DNA of 64,000 nucleotides, from positions 62,001 through 126,000 of the forward strand of contig JALHMC010000004.1 of NCBI GenBank assembly GCA_022844225.1, given 5' to 3'. The notes below the pieces were generated by a model. That model worked only from the letters and a program-made list of their open reading frames with translations. It had not been told where the DNA came from and searched no databases. The position numbers and the translations under genes were made by a program. The DNA comes from Hyphomicrobiaceae bacterium. GTDB lineage: Bacteria; Pseudomonadota; Alphaproteobacteria; Rhizobiales; Hyphomicrobiaceae. Below, piece after piece: positions 1,478 to 8,500 of the stretch. Each line of letters opens with the position of its first letter. Position 1 is the first letter of the stretch.

Positions 1478-1891
1478 ATGGCAGCGCAGAGAGGCAAAGA
1501 CCTTCTGCTGAAGGTCGATGCCGACGGATCGGGATCGTTCACGACGGTCGCCGGCCTCAGATCGCGTGCGATCTCGTTCAACACCGAGACCGTCGATGTC
1601 ACGCACTCGGAATCGGTCGGTCGCTGGCGCGAACTCTTGTCGGGGGCGGGCGCGAAGTCGGCGCGCGTCACCGGCGCCGGCATCTTCAAGGATGCCGCCT
1701 CCGACGAGATCGTGCGTGGCTACGTCTTCGCCGGCACCATTCGCAATTGGCAAATCGCGGTACCGGATTTCGGGGTCGTGTCTGGTCCGTTCCAGATCAC
1801 CGCCTTCGAGATCTCGGGACGGCACGACGGCGAGGTCGCCTTCGACATCACGCTCGAATCCGCTGGCGAACTGACGTTCGCGACTGCTTGA
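1478..1891 (+). CDS. GTA major tail (tube) protein, TP901-1 family (g9-like)
   Basis: 137 aa starting MAAQRGKDLLLKVD, the characteristic opening of TP901-1-type GTA tail-tube proteins, with ISFNTETVDVTHSES and the later GRHDGEVAFDITLESAG segment near the C-terminus. It polymerises as hexameric rings around the tape measure to make the tail tube. AGGAAAA lies just upstream of the chosen ATG. Length and order (terminator, then tube, then chaperones) agree with the RcGTA layout. Confidence 0.9.
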   Translation: MAAQRGKDLLLKVDADGSGSFTTVAGLRSRAISFNTETVDVTHSESVGRWRELLSGAGAKSARVTGAGIFKDAASDEIVRGYVFAGTIRNWQIAVPDFGVVSGPFQITAFEISGRHDGEVAFDITLESAGELTFATA

Positions 1892-1915: not shown

Positions 1916-2323
1916 ATGGCAAATCTGCACAGGGGCGAGATCGAGGCTGTTCTCGACGGTCAACCAATGGTCCTCTGCCTGACGCTGGGAGCGCTCGCCG
2001 AGCTCGAGGCGGCGTTCGGCGACGAGGACATGCTGGCGCTCGCCAATCGTCTTTCGTCCGGGCGCCTTTCCGCGCGCGATGCCATCCGCATTCTCGGTGC
2101 GGGGCTTCGCGGAGCTGGCAACGATCTTGTCGATGCGGATGTCGCCCGCCTCAAGGCCGACGGTGGCGCGGCGGGTTTTGTCGAGGTGGTCGCGCGACTT
2201 CTCACCGCCACGTTCGGAGCAGGTGAAAGTGCGCCGGTCCAAGGCTATGGCGGCGATCCGACCGGCGAGGTGCCAGCGACGAGCGAGGCGCGCGATCCCG
2301 GCCCTTTCCCTGGTCGGAGGTGA
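1916..2323 (+). CDS. GTA tail assembly chaperone-like protein (g10-like)
   Basis: 135 aa. Begins MANLHRGEIEAVLDG and contains LCLTLGALAELEAAFG, the signature of the GTA_gp10 family. The conserved domain fills about residues 1-100. The last 30 residues are a Gly/Pro/Ser-rich tail that looks like a linker. TGA (2321-2323) shares its A with the ATG of the next frame. A CCCTTTC heptamer in the correct phase lies five codons before the stop, which could divert some ribosomes into the next frame (see separate entry). The start has AGGAAAA upstream. The role, chaperoning the tape measure during tail assembly, is inferred from phage tail operons. Confidence 0.85.
   Translation: MANLHRGEIEAVLDGQPMVLCLTLGALAELEAAFGDEDMLALANRLSSGRLSARDAIRILGAGLRGAGNDLVDADVARLKADGGAAGFVEVVARLLTATFGAGESAPVQGYGGDPTGEVPATSEARDPGPFPGRR
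2302..2308 (+). promoter_or_regulatory. Candidate -1 ribosomal frameshift site CCCTTTC
   Basis: The heptamer is read as C CCT TTC in the g10 frame, which fits the X XXY YYZ slippery pattern exactly. A -1 slip continues as Pro-Trp-Ser-Glu-Val-Met into the g10.1 frame. This restores the FPW.E-type N-terminus I expect for the g10.1 family, which neither ATG 2323 nor GTG 2320 would include. Paired -1 frameshifted chaperones are common between tail-tube and tape-measure genes of siphophages. No stimulatory structure was computed, and CCC/TTT is not the strongest slippery site, so this is a hypothesis. Confidence 0.4.
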
Positions 2324-2490
2324 TGGCGGCCGGCCTCGGTCTCCTCCGTCTGCCGCCGGCCCAGTTCTGGTCCATGACCCCGCGTGAGCTTGCGGCAGCC
2401 TTGAGGGGCGGCCTGGGGCTCGGTGCGCGGTCGACGATGGTCCGCGGCGATCTCCTCAGCCTGATGAAGCGCTTTCCCGATCAGCACTGA
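2323..2490 (+). CDS. GTA phage tail assembly chaperone, rcc01693 family (g10.1-like)
   Basis: 55 aa from ATG 2323 (TGATG overlap with the preceding stop), rich in the family signature GLLRLPPAQFWSMTPREL, followed by a short helical end. In the R. capsulatus GTA the equivalent is rcc01693 between g10 and g11. The frame stays open upstream to a TGA at 2224-2226. Within this stretch only GTG 2320 and ATG 2323 are plausible starts, and both leave out the FPW motif encoded immediately before. Either the protein is made from the coupled ATG or it is also made as a -1 frameshift fusion with the preceding product. Confidence 0.8.
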   Translation: MAAGLGLLRLPPAQFWSMTPRELAAALRGGLGLGARSTMVRGDLLSLMKRFPDQH

Positions 2491-2522: not shown

Positions 2523-3086
2523 ATGCCCGAGACTTCCATGACGCCGGAGCCGTTTGCGAGCGCCGGTGAGATCGACGCGCTGCGCCTTCACATTGACGGT
2601 CTCAGCGAAAGCCAGCGTCGCTTTTCGACAGCGCTCGAAAGCTCGGATCGGATCGGTCGGCAGTTCGGCCGAACTCTGACCAATGCTTTCATTGGTCTCG
2701 CCGTCGAGGGCAAGAGCTTCGGTGCCGTTTTGAATACGCTCGTGATGAGCCTTTCAAGGATCGCACTGCGTGCCGCCTTCAAGCCCCTCGAGACGGCTTT
2801 CGGAAGCGCACTGCAGTCGCTGATCTCGGGGCCGTCGCTGTTCAGCGGCGCGAGCGTTGCCGCGCCTTCGGGTTTCCCCGTCGCTGCCGGCGTGCCGATC
2901 AGTGGCGGCTTGACGACCAGCAGCGGGGTCGTTGGCAGTGTCGCAGCGCCGAGCAGCATTATGGCCCCCGCCCCGAGCATCGTAATCAACGTCACGACCC
3001 CCGATGCGGAAAGCTTTCGCCGCTCCGAGACACAGCTCGCGGCGCTTCTCGCGAGGGCCGTGGGGCAGGGGCAGAGGAATCTCTGA
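2523..3086 (+). CDS. GTA tail tape measure protein, short (g11-like)
   Basis: 187 aa. The N-terminal third is helical and polar. It is followed by ALESSDRIGRQFGRTLTNAF and an alanine/glycine/serine-rich middle, then SIVINVTTPDAESFRRSE near the C-terminus, the conserved end of GTA and lambda-like minor tail proteins. The short length fits the short tail of GTA particles, whose length is set by this protein. AGGA precedes the ATG. The start has a second Met seven codons on, so either is possible. Confidence 0.85.
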   Translation: MPETSMTPEPFASAGEIDALRLHIDGLSESQRRFSTALESSDRIGRQFGRTLTNAFIGLAVEGKSFGAVLNTLVMSLSRIALRAAFKPLETAFGSALQSLISGPSLFSGASVAAPSGFPVAAGVPISGGLTTSSGVVGSVAAPSSIMAPAPSIVINVTTPDAESFRRSETQLAALLARAVGQGQRNL

Positions 3087-3800: not shown

Positions 3801-4039
3801 TCAGACGCGGGGCGTGCCCACGTCGCGGGTTCGCCGCTCCGTAAGCGGGGACAACAACGCGAAGCCGTACAGCGCCGCGATGCCGACTATCACGAACACG
3901 ATGCGTGAAAGAGTGCTGTATGACGCGGCCGTTCCTCCAAACAGCGCGGCCACCAGGTCGAAGTTGAACAGGCCTACCAAGCCCCAATTCAAACCTCCGA
4001 CAATCAGCAGGACCAGGCGACAACATTGATGGTCTGCAT
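3801..4039 (-). pseudogene. DUF378 small membrane protein, frameshifted, antisense inside GTA cluster
   Basis: Minus-strand ATG at 4039, with GGGAGA upstream, encodes MQTINVVA and then meets a stop within four codons. One frame over, the sequence continues LVLLIVGGLNWGLVGLFNFD and a second hydrophobic helix (IVFVIVGIAALYGFALL), ending TGA at 3801-3803. Together they make a normal DUF378 protein of about 79 aa with two membrane helices, lacking one base. A missing G in the plus-strand GG at 4016-4017 would restore the frame. It lies between g12 and g13, opposite to the operon. It may be a true recent pseudogene or a homopolymer sequencing error. Confidence 0.75.
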
Positions 4040-4134
4040 GTCGATCTCTCCCATTCTTGACGTGTTCTGGCGCAACCGCCGGCGGGGCGCGAGGTTCCGA
4101 GCAGCGCGACAAACAGGCCTTAGGAAAACGTGAC

Positions 4135-4992
4135 ATGAGAGACCTTCCCGCCGGCCTGCAGGCTGCCCTCGACAGCGGCGCCACTACGCTCTGCTGGTGC
4201 TGGCGTATCGCCCCGCGGAACAGGCCGGCGCTCGGCTTCACCGATCACGACCGCGATCTGATGTTCGATGGCACGACATTCGAGGCGGCTTCGGGTTTTT
4301 CCTCGAGTGAGCTGCGTGAATCCGTCGGGCTCGCCGTCGACAATCTCGAGGTCGAGAGCGCACTGGTCTCACCGAGCCTCACCGAGGAGGCGCTCGCGGC
4401 TGGCGATTTCGACGACGCTCTCGTCGAGATCTTCCGCGTCGACTGGACGGACGTTGCCTCGCGCGCCCTCCTGAGACGCGGCTCGCTCGGAGAGGTGCGT
4501 CGCTCGGGTCATGCCTTCGCGGCCGAGGTTCGCGGGCTGGCGCATTACCTGCAGCAACCGCAAGGTCGCTTGTTCCAGTACGCCTGCGATGCCGAACTCG
4601 GTGATGCTCGTTGCGGAATCGATCTGACGAGTGGCCTTTATCGAGCGAGCGGCACCGTCACGGCGGGACTTGGCGATCGTTTGCTTTCGACTGTTGATCT
4701 CGCCGCATTCTCCGATGGCTGGTTCACGCGCGGTCTCCTTACGTTCACAGGGGGGGCTAACGTGGGGCGGGCCGTCGAGGTCAAGCGTCACCAGAAGCGG
4801 GCCGGAGAGACGACCATCGAGCTTTGGCAGGCGCCCGGCGCCGTCATCGTCGCCGGGGACGCTTTCACGCTCACCGCGGGCTGCGACAAGCAGCATGCGA
4901 CATGTCGCGAAAAATTTACGAACTCCGTCAACTATCGCGGCTTTCCGCATATGCCCGGGAACGACTTCCTCGCATCGCCCCCTTCGGGCTGA
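4135..4992 (+). CDS. GTA hub protein, DUF2163 (g13-like)
   Basis: 285 aa from ATG 4135 with AGGAAAA upstream. A longer in-frame extension starts in the antisense gene's leader and is unlikely. Motifs include TTLCWCWRI, LGFTDHDRDL, LEVESAL and the C-terminal CDKQHATC and GFPHMPGNDF, all hallmarks of the DUF2163/BR0599 family. In RcGTA this is the trimeric hub at the tail tip. The conserved cysteines near the end bind an iron-sulfur cluster in the RcGTA hub; the CDK-x4-C and the earlier QYACDAELGDARCG cysteines are present here. The NlpC/P60 gene follows after 27 bases. Confidence 0.9.
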   Translation: MRDLPAGLQAALDSGATTLCWCWRIAPRNRPALGFTDHDRDLMFDGTTFEAASGFSSSELRESVGLAVDNLEVESALVSPSLTEEALAAGDFDDALVEIFRVDWTDVASRALLRRGSLGEVRRSGHAFAAEVRGLAHYLQQPQGRLFQYACDAELGDARCGIDLTSGLYRASGTVTAGLGDRLLSTVDLAAFSDGWFTRGLLTFTGGANVGRAVEVKRHQKRAGETTIELWQAPGAVIVAGDAFTLTAGCDKQHATCREKFTNSVNYRGFPHMPGNDFLASPPSG

Positions 4993-5508: not shown

Positions 5509-8500
5509 TGGCAACACTCGCTCTTACCGTTGCTGGCGCCGCTGTCGGCGGAGCCTTGCTGCCCGCCGGCGTTTCCTTCCTGGGAGCCACCCTTTCCGGT
5601 ACGGCGATCGGCTCGCAGATCGGCGCGATCGCCGGCACGTTCGTCGATCAGGCGCTGTTCGGCTCGAGCCGGCGTGCTGTTGCCGGTCCACGGCTGTCGG
5701 ATCTCACGGTCACGACGTCGACAGAGGGGGCCGCCGTACCGCGGCTGTTCGGACGGGCGCGGCTCGGCGGCCAAGTGATCTGGGCGACCGATCTCGAGGA
5801 GGAAGCCGTCACAAACGGTGGTGGCGGCAGCTCGAAAGGGGCTCCGTCGGGCGGCTCCGCGATCAATCGCACGGACTATCGCTACTATGCCAACTTTGCG
5901 GTCGCTCTCTGCGAAGGGCCGATCACCGGGATCGGTCGCGTTTGGGCGGATGGGCAGGAACTCGATCTCGGACAGCACGTCTGGCGGCTCTACCACGGTA
6001 GCGAGACGCAGGAGCCAGACGGTCTGATCGTCGCGCGTGAGGGGGCCGATGCGGCGCCCGCCTACCGAGGTGTCGCCTATATCGTGTTCGAGCGCATGGC
6101 GCTCGACACCTTCGGCAATCGCCTGCCGCAGCTGTCGTTCGAGGTGCACCGATCCGTCGATGCCTTCGAGGATCTGGTTCGCGGCGTCGTCATGATCCCG
6201 GGGTCGGGCGAGTTCGTCTACGCCTCCGAGCCGGTCACGCGGCGGACCGGCTCGGTCAGCACCGCGGCCGAGAACACGAATACTCTCAGAGGAGGCACCG
6301 ACTGGGAGGTTGCGCTCGATCAGCTGGCCGAGACGCTCCCCAATGCGCGGTCGACGTCGCTCGTGGTGAGCTGGTTCGGCTCGGATCTCAGGGCCGGGCA
6401 TTGTCTCGTACGCCCAGCGGTGGATGCCACGGAGAAGCAGACCCCGCCGCTCGAATGGACTGTCGCGGGGCTCACGCGTGCGACGGCTCCGCTCGTTTCG
6501 AGCAACGACGGGCAGGCCGCCTACGGTGGCACGCCGTCCGATCAGACCGTCGTCTCGGCTATTCGCGATCTGAAAGCCCGCGGCCACAAGGTGCTGCTGG
6601 CCCCTTTCATCCTGATGGACGTGCCGCATGGCAATGGACTGCTCGATCCCTACACGGGTGTGGTCGGGCAGCCCGCCTATCCGTGGCGTGGGCGGATTAC
6701 TGTCGATCCTGCGCCGGGCCTGTCCGGTTCGCCTGACAAGACGGCGCTCGCCGCCACACAAGTTGCAAACATCGTCGGCGCCGCTCTTCCCGCGCACTAC
6801 GCGATAGACGGCGACAGCGTCGTCTATTCGGGGCCGGCCGAGTGGACGATCCGGCGCATGGTGTTGCACTACGCGCATCTCGCGGTTGCTGCCGGCGGTG
6901 TCGATGGCATCCTGATCGGAACCGAGCTCCGTGGCCTGACGCAGGTGCGGTCCGGGTCCTCGACGTATCCGTTCGTATCAGCCCTCGCCGCGCTTGCCGC
7001 CGATGTGAAGGCCGTCGTCGGACCTGCCACGAAGGTCACCTATGCCGCCGACTGGTCCGAGTATTTCGGCCATCAACCTGCTGACGGCTCGGGCGACGTG
7101 CACTTCCACCTCGATCCGCTCTGGGCATCGCCTGCGATCGATGCGGTCGCCATCGACTGCTACTGGCCGCTCGCCGACTGGCGCGACAACGACCATCTCG
7201 ATCGCACAGCCGGCGCTCGCTCGATCTACGATGTCGACTACCTGAAGGCCAATGTCTTCGGTGGCGAAGGCTACGACTGGTTCTACGCCTCGCCTGCCGA
7301 CCGCGCGGCTCAAATCCGCATACCGATCATGGACGGCGTTGCCGGCAAGCCTTGGGTGTTTCGCTACAAGGATGTGCGCAATTGGTGGTCGAACCCGCAT
7401 TTCGAGCGACCCGGTGGTGTGGAGGGCGCTACACTGACCGGTTGGGTACCGCAATCGAAGCCGATCTGGCTGACTGAGATCGGGTGCCCTGCGGTCGACA
7501 AGGGTGCCAATCAGCCCAACGTATTCGTCGATCCGAAGAGCTCGGAATCGTTCCTGCCCTATCACTCGAGCGGCGAGCGCGACGATCTCATGCAGCGCCG
7601 CTACCTGCAGGCCCTGCTCGAGGCTCTCGATCCGCTGCATCCGGGCTATGTCGACGGGGCAAACCCCGTGTCCGCGGGCTATGGCGGACGCATGATCGAT
7701 ATCGATCATATCTACGTCTACGCGTGGGACGCGCGTCCCTATCCGGCCTTTCCAAGTCTCGATCTCGTGTGGAGCGACGGCGCGAATTGGCGCCTCGGTC
7801 ATTGGATCAACGGACGCGTGACCGGCCAACAACTCGGCGCGGTTATCGCCGCGCTGCTCGAGGGGTATGGCTTTTCCGATTACGACGTCTCTGCGCTCGA
7901 CGCGCTCGTCACGGGCCTCGTCATCGACCGACCGATGTCGGCTCGCGATGCGATGCAGCCTTTGGAACTCGCCTATTTTCTCGATGCGATCGACGACGGC
8001 GGCGCGATCCGGTTTGCCCATCGCGGAGCCGAGCCGCCGCTTGTCGTGCTCACGATAGACGATCTGGTCGAGACCAAGCCCGGCTCCGATCTCGTGCGCC
8101 TCACCCGGGCCCAGGAGACGGACCTTCCCGCCGCGGCACGCGTCTCTTACTCGGCGCTCGAATCCGACTACCGGCAGGCCGTTGCCCAGTCGCGCCGCCT
8201 GGTTGGAGCATCCGGGCGCGTCGCAGACGCGCAACTCGCCCTCGTCATGGACGCCGGACAGGCGGTTCGCACTGCCGACACCTGGCTCTTTGAGACTTGG
8301 GCCGCGCGCGAGCGGGCTCGATTCCTGCTCCCGCCCTCGGCGCTGGCTCTCCAGCCCGGCGATGTGGTCGTCTTCGAGCATGCAGAACGTTCCCGCCTCT
8401 TCCGCATCATCGAGGTCGGTGACCATGGGGCGCGTGAGATCGAGGCGATCGCAATCGATCCGGCGGTTTACGCAGGAGGCAGCACCGTCGTCAGGCCCGA

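Follow-up and report, generated by a model that had tools for sequence, protein, structure and literature searches.

A conserved −1 frameshift in the tail chaperones of long-tailed dsDNA phages was reportedly described by Xu, Hendrix and Duda in 2004. The heptamer of phage lambda is GGGAAAG. The roles of the lambda G and GT proteins in tail assembly are described in passages of PMC5009743, and a cluster of phage tail chaperones related to HK97 is reported in a section of PMC3711429. According to excerpts of PMC4066793, motifs of the H_HH.U_UU.Y type are among the efficient slip classes in E. coli, C_CC.U_UU.C shifts there at a high level, and SD sequences upstream of heptamers were searched in the range of 6-17 nt. 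A tail-gene frameshift is mentioned for Rhodobacter phages in parts of PMC4882933 and PMC8601537, and a +1 shift was proposed in another gene of a Wolbachia element in part of PMC10299305. The initial annotation of the DNA studied here was aware of no g10/g10.1 frameshift in a GTA, and in agreement with this none was found in the searched portions of the literature on GTA frameshifts and tail chaperones (PMC8601537, PMC9765227, PMC10299305, PMC8718954, PMC11409702, PMC9022992, PMC10127595, and PMC4882933), most subscription papers and Sharma 2011 lying outside the scope of this search. The word "frameshift" is absent from the paper on the RcGTA structure (PMC7296036).

The window, that is, the whole stretch of 64,000 nucleotides that was analysed, begins inside an RcGTA-like GTA head-tail cluster. 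The genes follow in the order gp8-type connector, head closure protein, tail completion, g9, g10, g10.1, short tape measure, distal tail, hub, NlpC peptidase, and a 1316-aa megatron, and the GTA-type baseplate genes are present (GTA_megatron with 1800 bits, the TIGR02218 hub, the Rcc01695 family, and NlpC). The two small genes g10 and g10.1 are thus located between the tail tube gene g9 and the tape measure gene g11, as in the G/GT type. The features of the locus are collected in Table 1. The g11 product, which has no Pfam match, is shorter than the RcGTA_tape model (length 220), so that the tail may be shorter than that of RcGTA. It should be mentioned that a DUF378 gene (PF04070, 74.2 bits; 3801-4241, minus strand) lies on the opposite strand, flanked by the GTA genes for the distal tail and the hub; on visual inspection, the reading frame of its N-terminal part appears to be disrupted.

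Table 1. Features of the g10/g10.1 locus (positions are those of the window)
Feature	Position	Strand	Evidence or remark
g9, major tail (tube) protein, upstream neighbour	1478..1891	+	PF06199 152.6 bits; TIGR02126 110.8 bits
g10, 0-frame product, 135 aa, 13.7 kDa, G-like tail assembly chaperone	1916..2323	+	PF11836 Phage_TAC_11 102.5 bits
Stronger SD-like stretch GCGAGGTG, 29 nt before the heptamer	2265..2272	+	-9.1 kcal/mol
SD-like stretch GAGCGAGG, candidate stimulator, ending 13 nt before the heptamer	2281..2288	+	-6.6 kcal/mol with CACCUCCUU; enrichment at group level
Slippery heptamer CCCTTTC, read C CCT TTC (-1 slip gives CCC TTT)	2302..2308	+	
g10.1 domain (PFPW...), -1 frame, T-like chaperone domain, Phage_TAC_6, rcc01693 family	2302..2490	+	PF09550 73.4 bits; TIGR02216 69.9 bits
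Second slip-phase heptamer TTTCCCT (T TTC CCT), overlapping the first	2305..2311	+	
Predicted g10-g10.1 fusion by slip	1916-2308 then 2308-2487	+	191 aa, 19.8 kDa (computed)
Rival internal starts GTG-ATG, sharing bases with the g10 stop TGA (2321-2323); FPWSE would be lost	2320..2325	+	
g11, short tape measure protein, 187 aa, downstream neighbour	2523..3086	+	NF058675 RcGTA_tape 69 bits, below the cut-off of 220

The initial annotation had proposed that a programmed −1 frameshift on CCCTTTC joins g10 and g10.1. The codons of g10 at this site are CCT (2303-2305) and TTC (2306-2308), which confirms that the heptamer is in the X XXY YYZ phase of g10; it lies 12 nt before the g10 stop. Translation after a −1 slip gives CCC TTT followed by CCC TGG TCG GAG GTG ATG, so that the reading continues into g10.1 as F-P-W-S-E-V-M, in the way that had been claimed. 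An open stretch of the −1 frame begins at 2227, behind the TGA at 2224-2226, and extends to 2487. Its first possible starts are the GTG at 2320 and then the ATG at 2323, both of which are 3' of FPW; the statement that no separate start includes the FPW N-terminus therefore holds. The PF09550 and TIGR02216 models match g10.1 from its first residues, (P)FPW. The motif alone is weak evidence. The X XXY YYZ pattern occurs in slip phase at 11 of the 2906 codon positions of the 11 GTA genes in the window, and one case near a gene end therefore proves nothing. At this rate, the chance expectation for the g10/g10.1 overlap of about 32 codons is about 0.1. A further slip-phase CCCTTTC is present at 6602, inside the megatron gene, and is probably due to chance. 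The case against chance rests on the comparison with relatives.

We consider it highly probable that g10 and g10.1 are a chaperone pair of the G/GT type, which is expressed through programmed, SD-assisted −1 ribosomal frameshifting. Most ribosomes would translate g10 to the stop at 2321, giving the G-like protein of 135 aa. A minority would pause, presumably because the 16S rRNA pairs with the SD-like stretch that ends some 13 nt before the heptamer. On CCU UUC, the paused ribosomes would slip by −1 with tRNA-Pro and tRNA-Phe, both of which can re-pair with CCC UUU, and would then read on as PW..., producing a G-T fusion of 191 aa. If the roles are as in lambda, the tape measure protein would be coated by the G part and the tail tube protein recruited by the T-like g10.1 part, with the slip rate setting the G:GT ratio. 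What the sequences show directly is the site, the frame, the absence of a start, the conservation, the frozen synonymous codons, and the SD enrichment in relatives; the slip itself, how efficient it is, any effect of the SD-like stretch on it, and the part that the products play in assembly are inferred.

Relatives were gathered by PF09550 searches of the genome itself, of its relatives, of the class, and of selected families, together with named genomes. One search included 122 of 123 matching genomes (G131 and weak second matches were left out), several further searches were limited to the best 30 matches at most, and the named loci are the best 80 of 372 and are not counted among the 59 loci known to be of the window's own family. 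Among 315 loci, both genes were recognised in 311; the four without a recognised g10 (L122, L149, L172, and L289) were left out. After removal of 15 loci with an identical junction stretch, 296 distinct junctions remained. An own start was defined as an in-frame ATG, GTG, or TTG no further than 75 nt upstream of the F in FPW. A slip-phase X XXY YYZ was counted as a heptamer when it fell at most 75 nt from the g10 stop and within the open overlap.

g10.1 is in the −1 frame at 270 of the 296 distinct junctions, and 144 of these 270 loci have no own start within 75 nt. A slip-phase heptamer is present in 132 of the 144 start-less loci; in the control phases, the pattern occurs in 8 and 7 of them. 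When an own start exists, the heptamer is found in 26 of 126 loci (control phases, 9 and 3). The association of the heptamer with the absence of an own start is strong by Fisher's test (p 4e-35), a value calculated on related sequences and uncorrected for kinship. Since the FastTree tree of the 296 loci has long branches, only change counts and independent pairs were taken from it. Among 18 independent tree pairs, a mean of 6.9 differed in the expected way, 1.2 against it, and 9.9 showed no difference (median p 0.07); with relatedness corrected for, the mutual exclusion of start and heptamer in these sequences thus seems to have modest support. The state with the heptamer at FPW requires 11 changes on the tree, or 8 when only supported branches are considered. 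Twelve of the 144 start-less loci have no counted heptamer, and L012 among them has CCCTTTC just beyond the 75-nt limit. Homologues that lack the heptamer and have a good g10.1 start of their own, named in the initial annotation as what would refute the proposal, do occur in other lineages (100 of the 126 own-start −1-frame loci). The frameshift is therefore not universal in GTAs; the claim for this locus stands.

The tail of g10 beyond its domain has a median length of 26 aa in loci with the heptamer at FPW, 19.5 aa in those with the heptamer upstream, and 4 aa in those with an own start. A longer tail in heptamer loci is as expected if it serves as a linker in a fusion. This agrees with the linker role assigned earlier to the g10 C-terminus; the wording "flexible Gly/Pro linker" has to be changed, as the tail is a low-complexity stretch of Gly, Pro, Asp, and Glu.

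In the window's own family (f1, which we take to be Hyphomicrobiaceae), conservation of the heptamer and of the FPW codons is strong: CCCTTTC is located at FPW in 57 of 59 distinct loci and in 17 of 18 genera. In 54 of these 57 loci, no in-frame ATG, GTG, or TTG is present within 75 nt upstream, and the remaining three have a TTG. The two exceptions are L019, with GGGAAAC upstream, and L028, from the window's genus, which has CCCTTCC and thus neither heptamer nor start. L028 keeps PFPW and a modest SD-like stretch, and may represent a decaying GTA or another kind of slip. In the 58 own-family loci with FPW overlapping g10, the Pro codon is CCC in all 58 and the Phe codon is TTT in 57. At another invariant Pro of the same proteins, the codons are CCG 29, CCC 16, CCT 7, and CCA 6, and at the Phe of FW they are TTC 45 and TTT 5. 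Furthermore, conservation of the −1-frame protein in this family starts at P-F, with little upstream of the heptamer, which is expected if ribosomes enter the frame there.

TTT at the FPW Phe was rejected as stand-alone evidence, since loci that have no heptamer at this point often carry it too: in own-start loci this Phe is TTT 53 times and TTC 24 times, with other Phe residues TTT 93 times and TTC 167 times. It was weighed only against Pro and Phe codons elsewhere in the same proteins of the own family. The excess of TTT in own-start and upstream-heptamer loci is perhaps a relic of an ancestral CCCTTTC.

In addition, an SD-like stretch, overlooked in the initial annotation, lies 9-25 nt upstream of the heptamer and is enriched over codon-permuted controls in four groups of loci. 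SD cores in the region from −25 to −9 were found in 44 of 57, 16 of 24, 12 of 13, and 28 of 40 loci, with permuted means of 17.5, 4.7, 4.5, and 9.8, respectively, and the counts exceeded all 200 permutations in each group. Over the 132 loci, the cores GGAG, GAGG, and AGGA number 67, 83, and 68 in the 5-nt bins from −25, −20, and −15, and 21 in bin −30, with at most 15 in every other bin back to −80. Pairing with the anti-SD sequence CACCUCCUU, whose letters we take to be the standard ones, is best about 21 nt before the heptamer in the 54 own-family loci (mean −5.7 versus −2.08, sd 0.37, for codon-permuted copies). In 38 other loci that carry the heptamer at FPW, the mean is −5.5; for the 40 upstream-heptamer loci, the best mean, −4.8, is reached at 15 nt. 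A search for the 16S 3'-end pattern, in sequences from which rRNA stretches may be missing, gave no match in genome G000 or in any of 7 relatives, some of them complete. The match of GAGCGAGG in the window itself is modest (−6.6 kcal/mol versus a group median of −9.5 kcal/mol; spacing, 13 nt). This placement makes the SD-like stretch a candidate frameshift stimulator. The best SD energy anywhere within 40 nt was dropped as a statistic, since codon-permuted copies also score well, and the position-specific counts were used in its place.

Downstream folding of the window's RNA (2309-2375) gave a z of −0.96 in a model that leaves out pseudoknots. No consistent downstream structure was found: in 50-nt windows around the heptamer, the group mean z ranged from −1.05 to +0.22 with no shared pattern, for the first 40 of the 57 own-family loci, 30 of the 40 other heptamer-at-FPW loci, all 40 upstream-heptamer loci, and 40 own-start loci.

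The model of g10.1 (mean pLDDT of 84.9) has its helix 1 at residues 4-14, beginning at the W of FPW. Internal starts would therefore be predicted to cut into helix 1. The model of g10 (mean pLDDT of 86.9) resembles predicted phage tail assembly chaperones. Three of its 196 matches in BFVD were at E ≤ 0.001, one of them a named tail assembly chaperone, with a TM of about 0.7. No solved structure matched g10 at a Z of 2 or more, and nothing usable was obtained for g10 from the PDB sequence search and VIA-align, or for g10.1 from the PDB sequence and Foldseek searches.

The leading alternative, which we regard as very unlikely, is translational coupling, in which a separate, shorter g10.1 would be made by reinitiation at the GTG (2320) or the ATG (2323). 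The overlap of GTGATG with the g10 stop accords with this, as do the GGAGG at 2316-2320, the retention of Val in 57 and of Met in 56 of 58 own-family loci, and the fact that g10.1 is annotated from an internal ATG in two phages and in both GTA-like records. However, the product would lose FPW and the start of predicted helix 1, yet W4 is kept in 285 of the 296 loci, in all classes. (Alignment A3 was drawn from loci having the FPW tryptophan, and its invariant W was not used as evidence.) Neither would such a start be available in 25 of the 97 heptamer-at-FPW loci, 20 of them in f56 and only 1 in the window's family, which have no ATG, GTG, or TTG from −75 to F+24. The GGAGG is only 2 nt from the ATG, and in the window about 34 nt separate this ATG from the conserved SD-like stretch, too far for initiation there. 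SD pairing 4-10 nt before the internal ATG has a median of −3.9 in 64 relatives versus −5.7 for coupled ATGs in 57 own-start loci; the same −3.9 compares with −9.5 upstream of the heptamer, in windows of unequal number. Coupling also leaves the frozen CCC TTT unexplained, and V-M may be kept simply as residues. Reinitiation at 2320 or 2323 could add a minor separate product.

It is very improbable that the heptamer arose by chance, or simply because P-F is encoded in GC-rich DNA, with g10.1 otherwise expressed or decaying. The other occurrences of the pattern in the cluster, including that at 6602, speak for this reading, which is already disfavoured by the phase control in the start-less loci, the frozen synonymous sites, the placement of the SD-like stretch, the same arrangement in several families, and the heptamers in phages. 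Transcriptional slippage, which also gives mixed frames at repeats, is the least probable source of the −1 product, since CCCTTTC contains no long homopolymer and the X XXY YYZ phase with an SD-like element is a set of ribosomal features.

CCCTTTC at FPW was also found in three other families of the class (f56, f177, and f61). The heptamer is at FPW in f56 as CCCTTTC 13, CCCTTTT 8, and CCCTTTG 2 of 30 loci, in f177 in 5 of 5, and in f61 in 8 of 29. The remaining heptamer loci have candidate sites upstream, of which AAACCCT is the commonest, with GGGAAAG, CCCTTTG, and similar ones besides. The AAACCCT sites are doubtful; they are less certain because A_AA.C_CC.A is listed among the motifs below threshold in E. 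coli in an excerpt of PMC4066793. In L140, GGGAAAG occurs three times in the slip register, 24-60 nt before FPW (two of them in the counted zone), possibly as a tandem slip region. In f74, which we take to be Rhodobacteraceae and in which g10.1 reads FDWP..., an own start is present in 30 of 31 loci, 18 of them with an ATGA overlap; no locus of the 31 is heptamer-only, and L257 has neither start nor heptamer. Both the frameshift and the ATGA overlap keep the same −1 frame, and switching between them would be easy.

Among phages, the g10.1 of the window matched no record of the phage collection at E 1e-3, and its g10 matched two. A query with the divergent g10.1 of L062 matched 7 of 50,697 phage records at E up to 1, including both g10 matches. 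A slip-phase heptamer is present near the g10 end in all six records of the collection examined (RHph_Y3_56_1 was left out): AAACCCT in two, GGGAAAC in three, and GGGAAAG in one. In RHph_Y3_1, an ATG lies just before the g10.1 domain, and a separate start is possible there. In both GTA-like records, in ctuI7215, and in the Desulfofustis phage, g10.1 is annotated from an internal ATG, without FPW-type residues. These internal-ATG annotations are L316 1905-2063, L317 1884-2063, L320 1243-1407, and L321 1216-1401; such mis-annotation may be widespread.

On balance, we lean towards the view that GTAs inherited an SD-stimulated −1 frameshift, setting the ratio of two tail chaperone forms, from a phage ancestor, and that lineages repeatedly replaced it by ATGA stop-start coupling and moved the slip site. 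If so, the G-T fusion would have become less necessary with domestication in some GTAs, among them perhaps the RcGTA model, and not in others. The mixed states within one gene family make it possible to follow how frameshift and stop-start coupling replace each other. If the frameshift is used by most of the window's family and by several others, g10.1 is likely to be mis-annotated, either with FPW missing or as too short to be called. Proteomics would then miss the fusion, and the G:GT ratio would be a testable control on particle yield. The frozen synonymous codons argue for selection on these GTA clusters to work. The heptamers with their upstream SD-like element also provide natural material for work on SD-stimulated slipping at CCCUUUC/U.

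When the locus is compared with known systems, the E. coli dnaX and IS911-type sites resemble it in having an SD-like stretch ahead of an X XXY YYZ heptamer. The shift product of dnaX is shorter, whereas that predicted here is longer, and no consistent downstream hairpin was found here. RcGTA of Rhodobacter capsulatus agrees with the locus in gene order and, by name, in gene families (rcc01693 family, TIGR02216); a likely difference is the own g10.1 start, judged via f74 (30 of 31 loci) and not from the RcGTA sequence itself. GTA work leans largely on this one model, and its relatives seem to make the two chaperones separately. In Rhizobium phage RHph_Y3_1 and Sinorhizobium phage phi2LM21, a g10-like gene is followed by a g10.1-like gene in the −1 frame, with a slip-phase GGGAAAC or GGGAAAG near the g10 end; unlike in the window, these other heptamers lie upstream of the domain, and the genes are annotated as two separate CDS. 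With lambda G/GT, the locus shares a pair of chaperone genes that overlap and stand between the genes for the tail tube and the tape measure; close to where the first of them ends, a −1 slip on X XXY YYZ would give access to the second part. The differences from lambda are the domesticated GTA setting, CCCTTTC instead of GGGAAAG, the SD-like stretch upstream, and the Pfam families TAC_11 and TAC_6; in addition, the slip site here falls on the very residues with which the T-like domain begins. Judged from sequence, the system is very probably of the known G/GT kind, distinguished by its slip site, its SD-like stimulator, and its home in a GTA.
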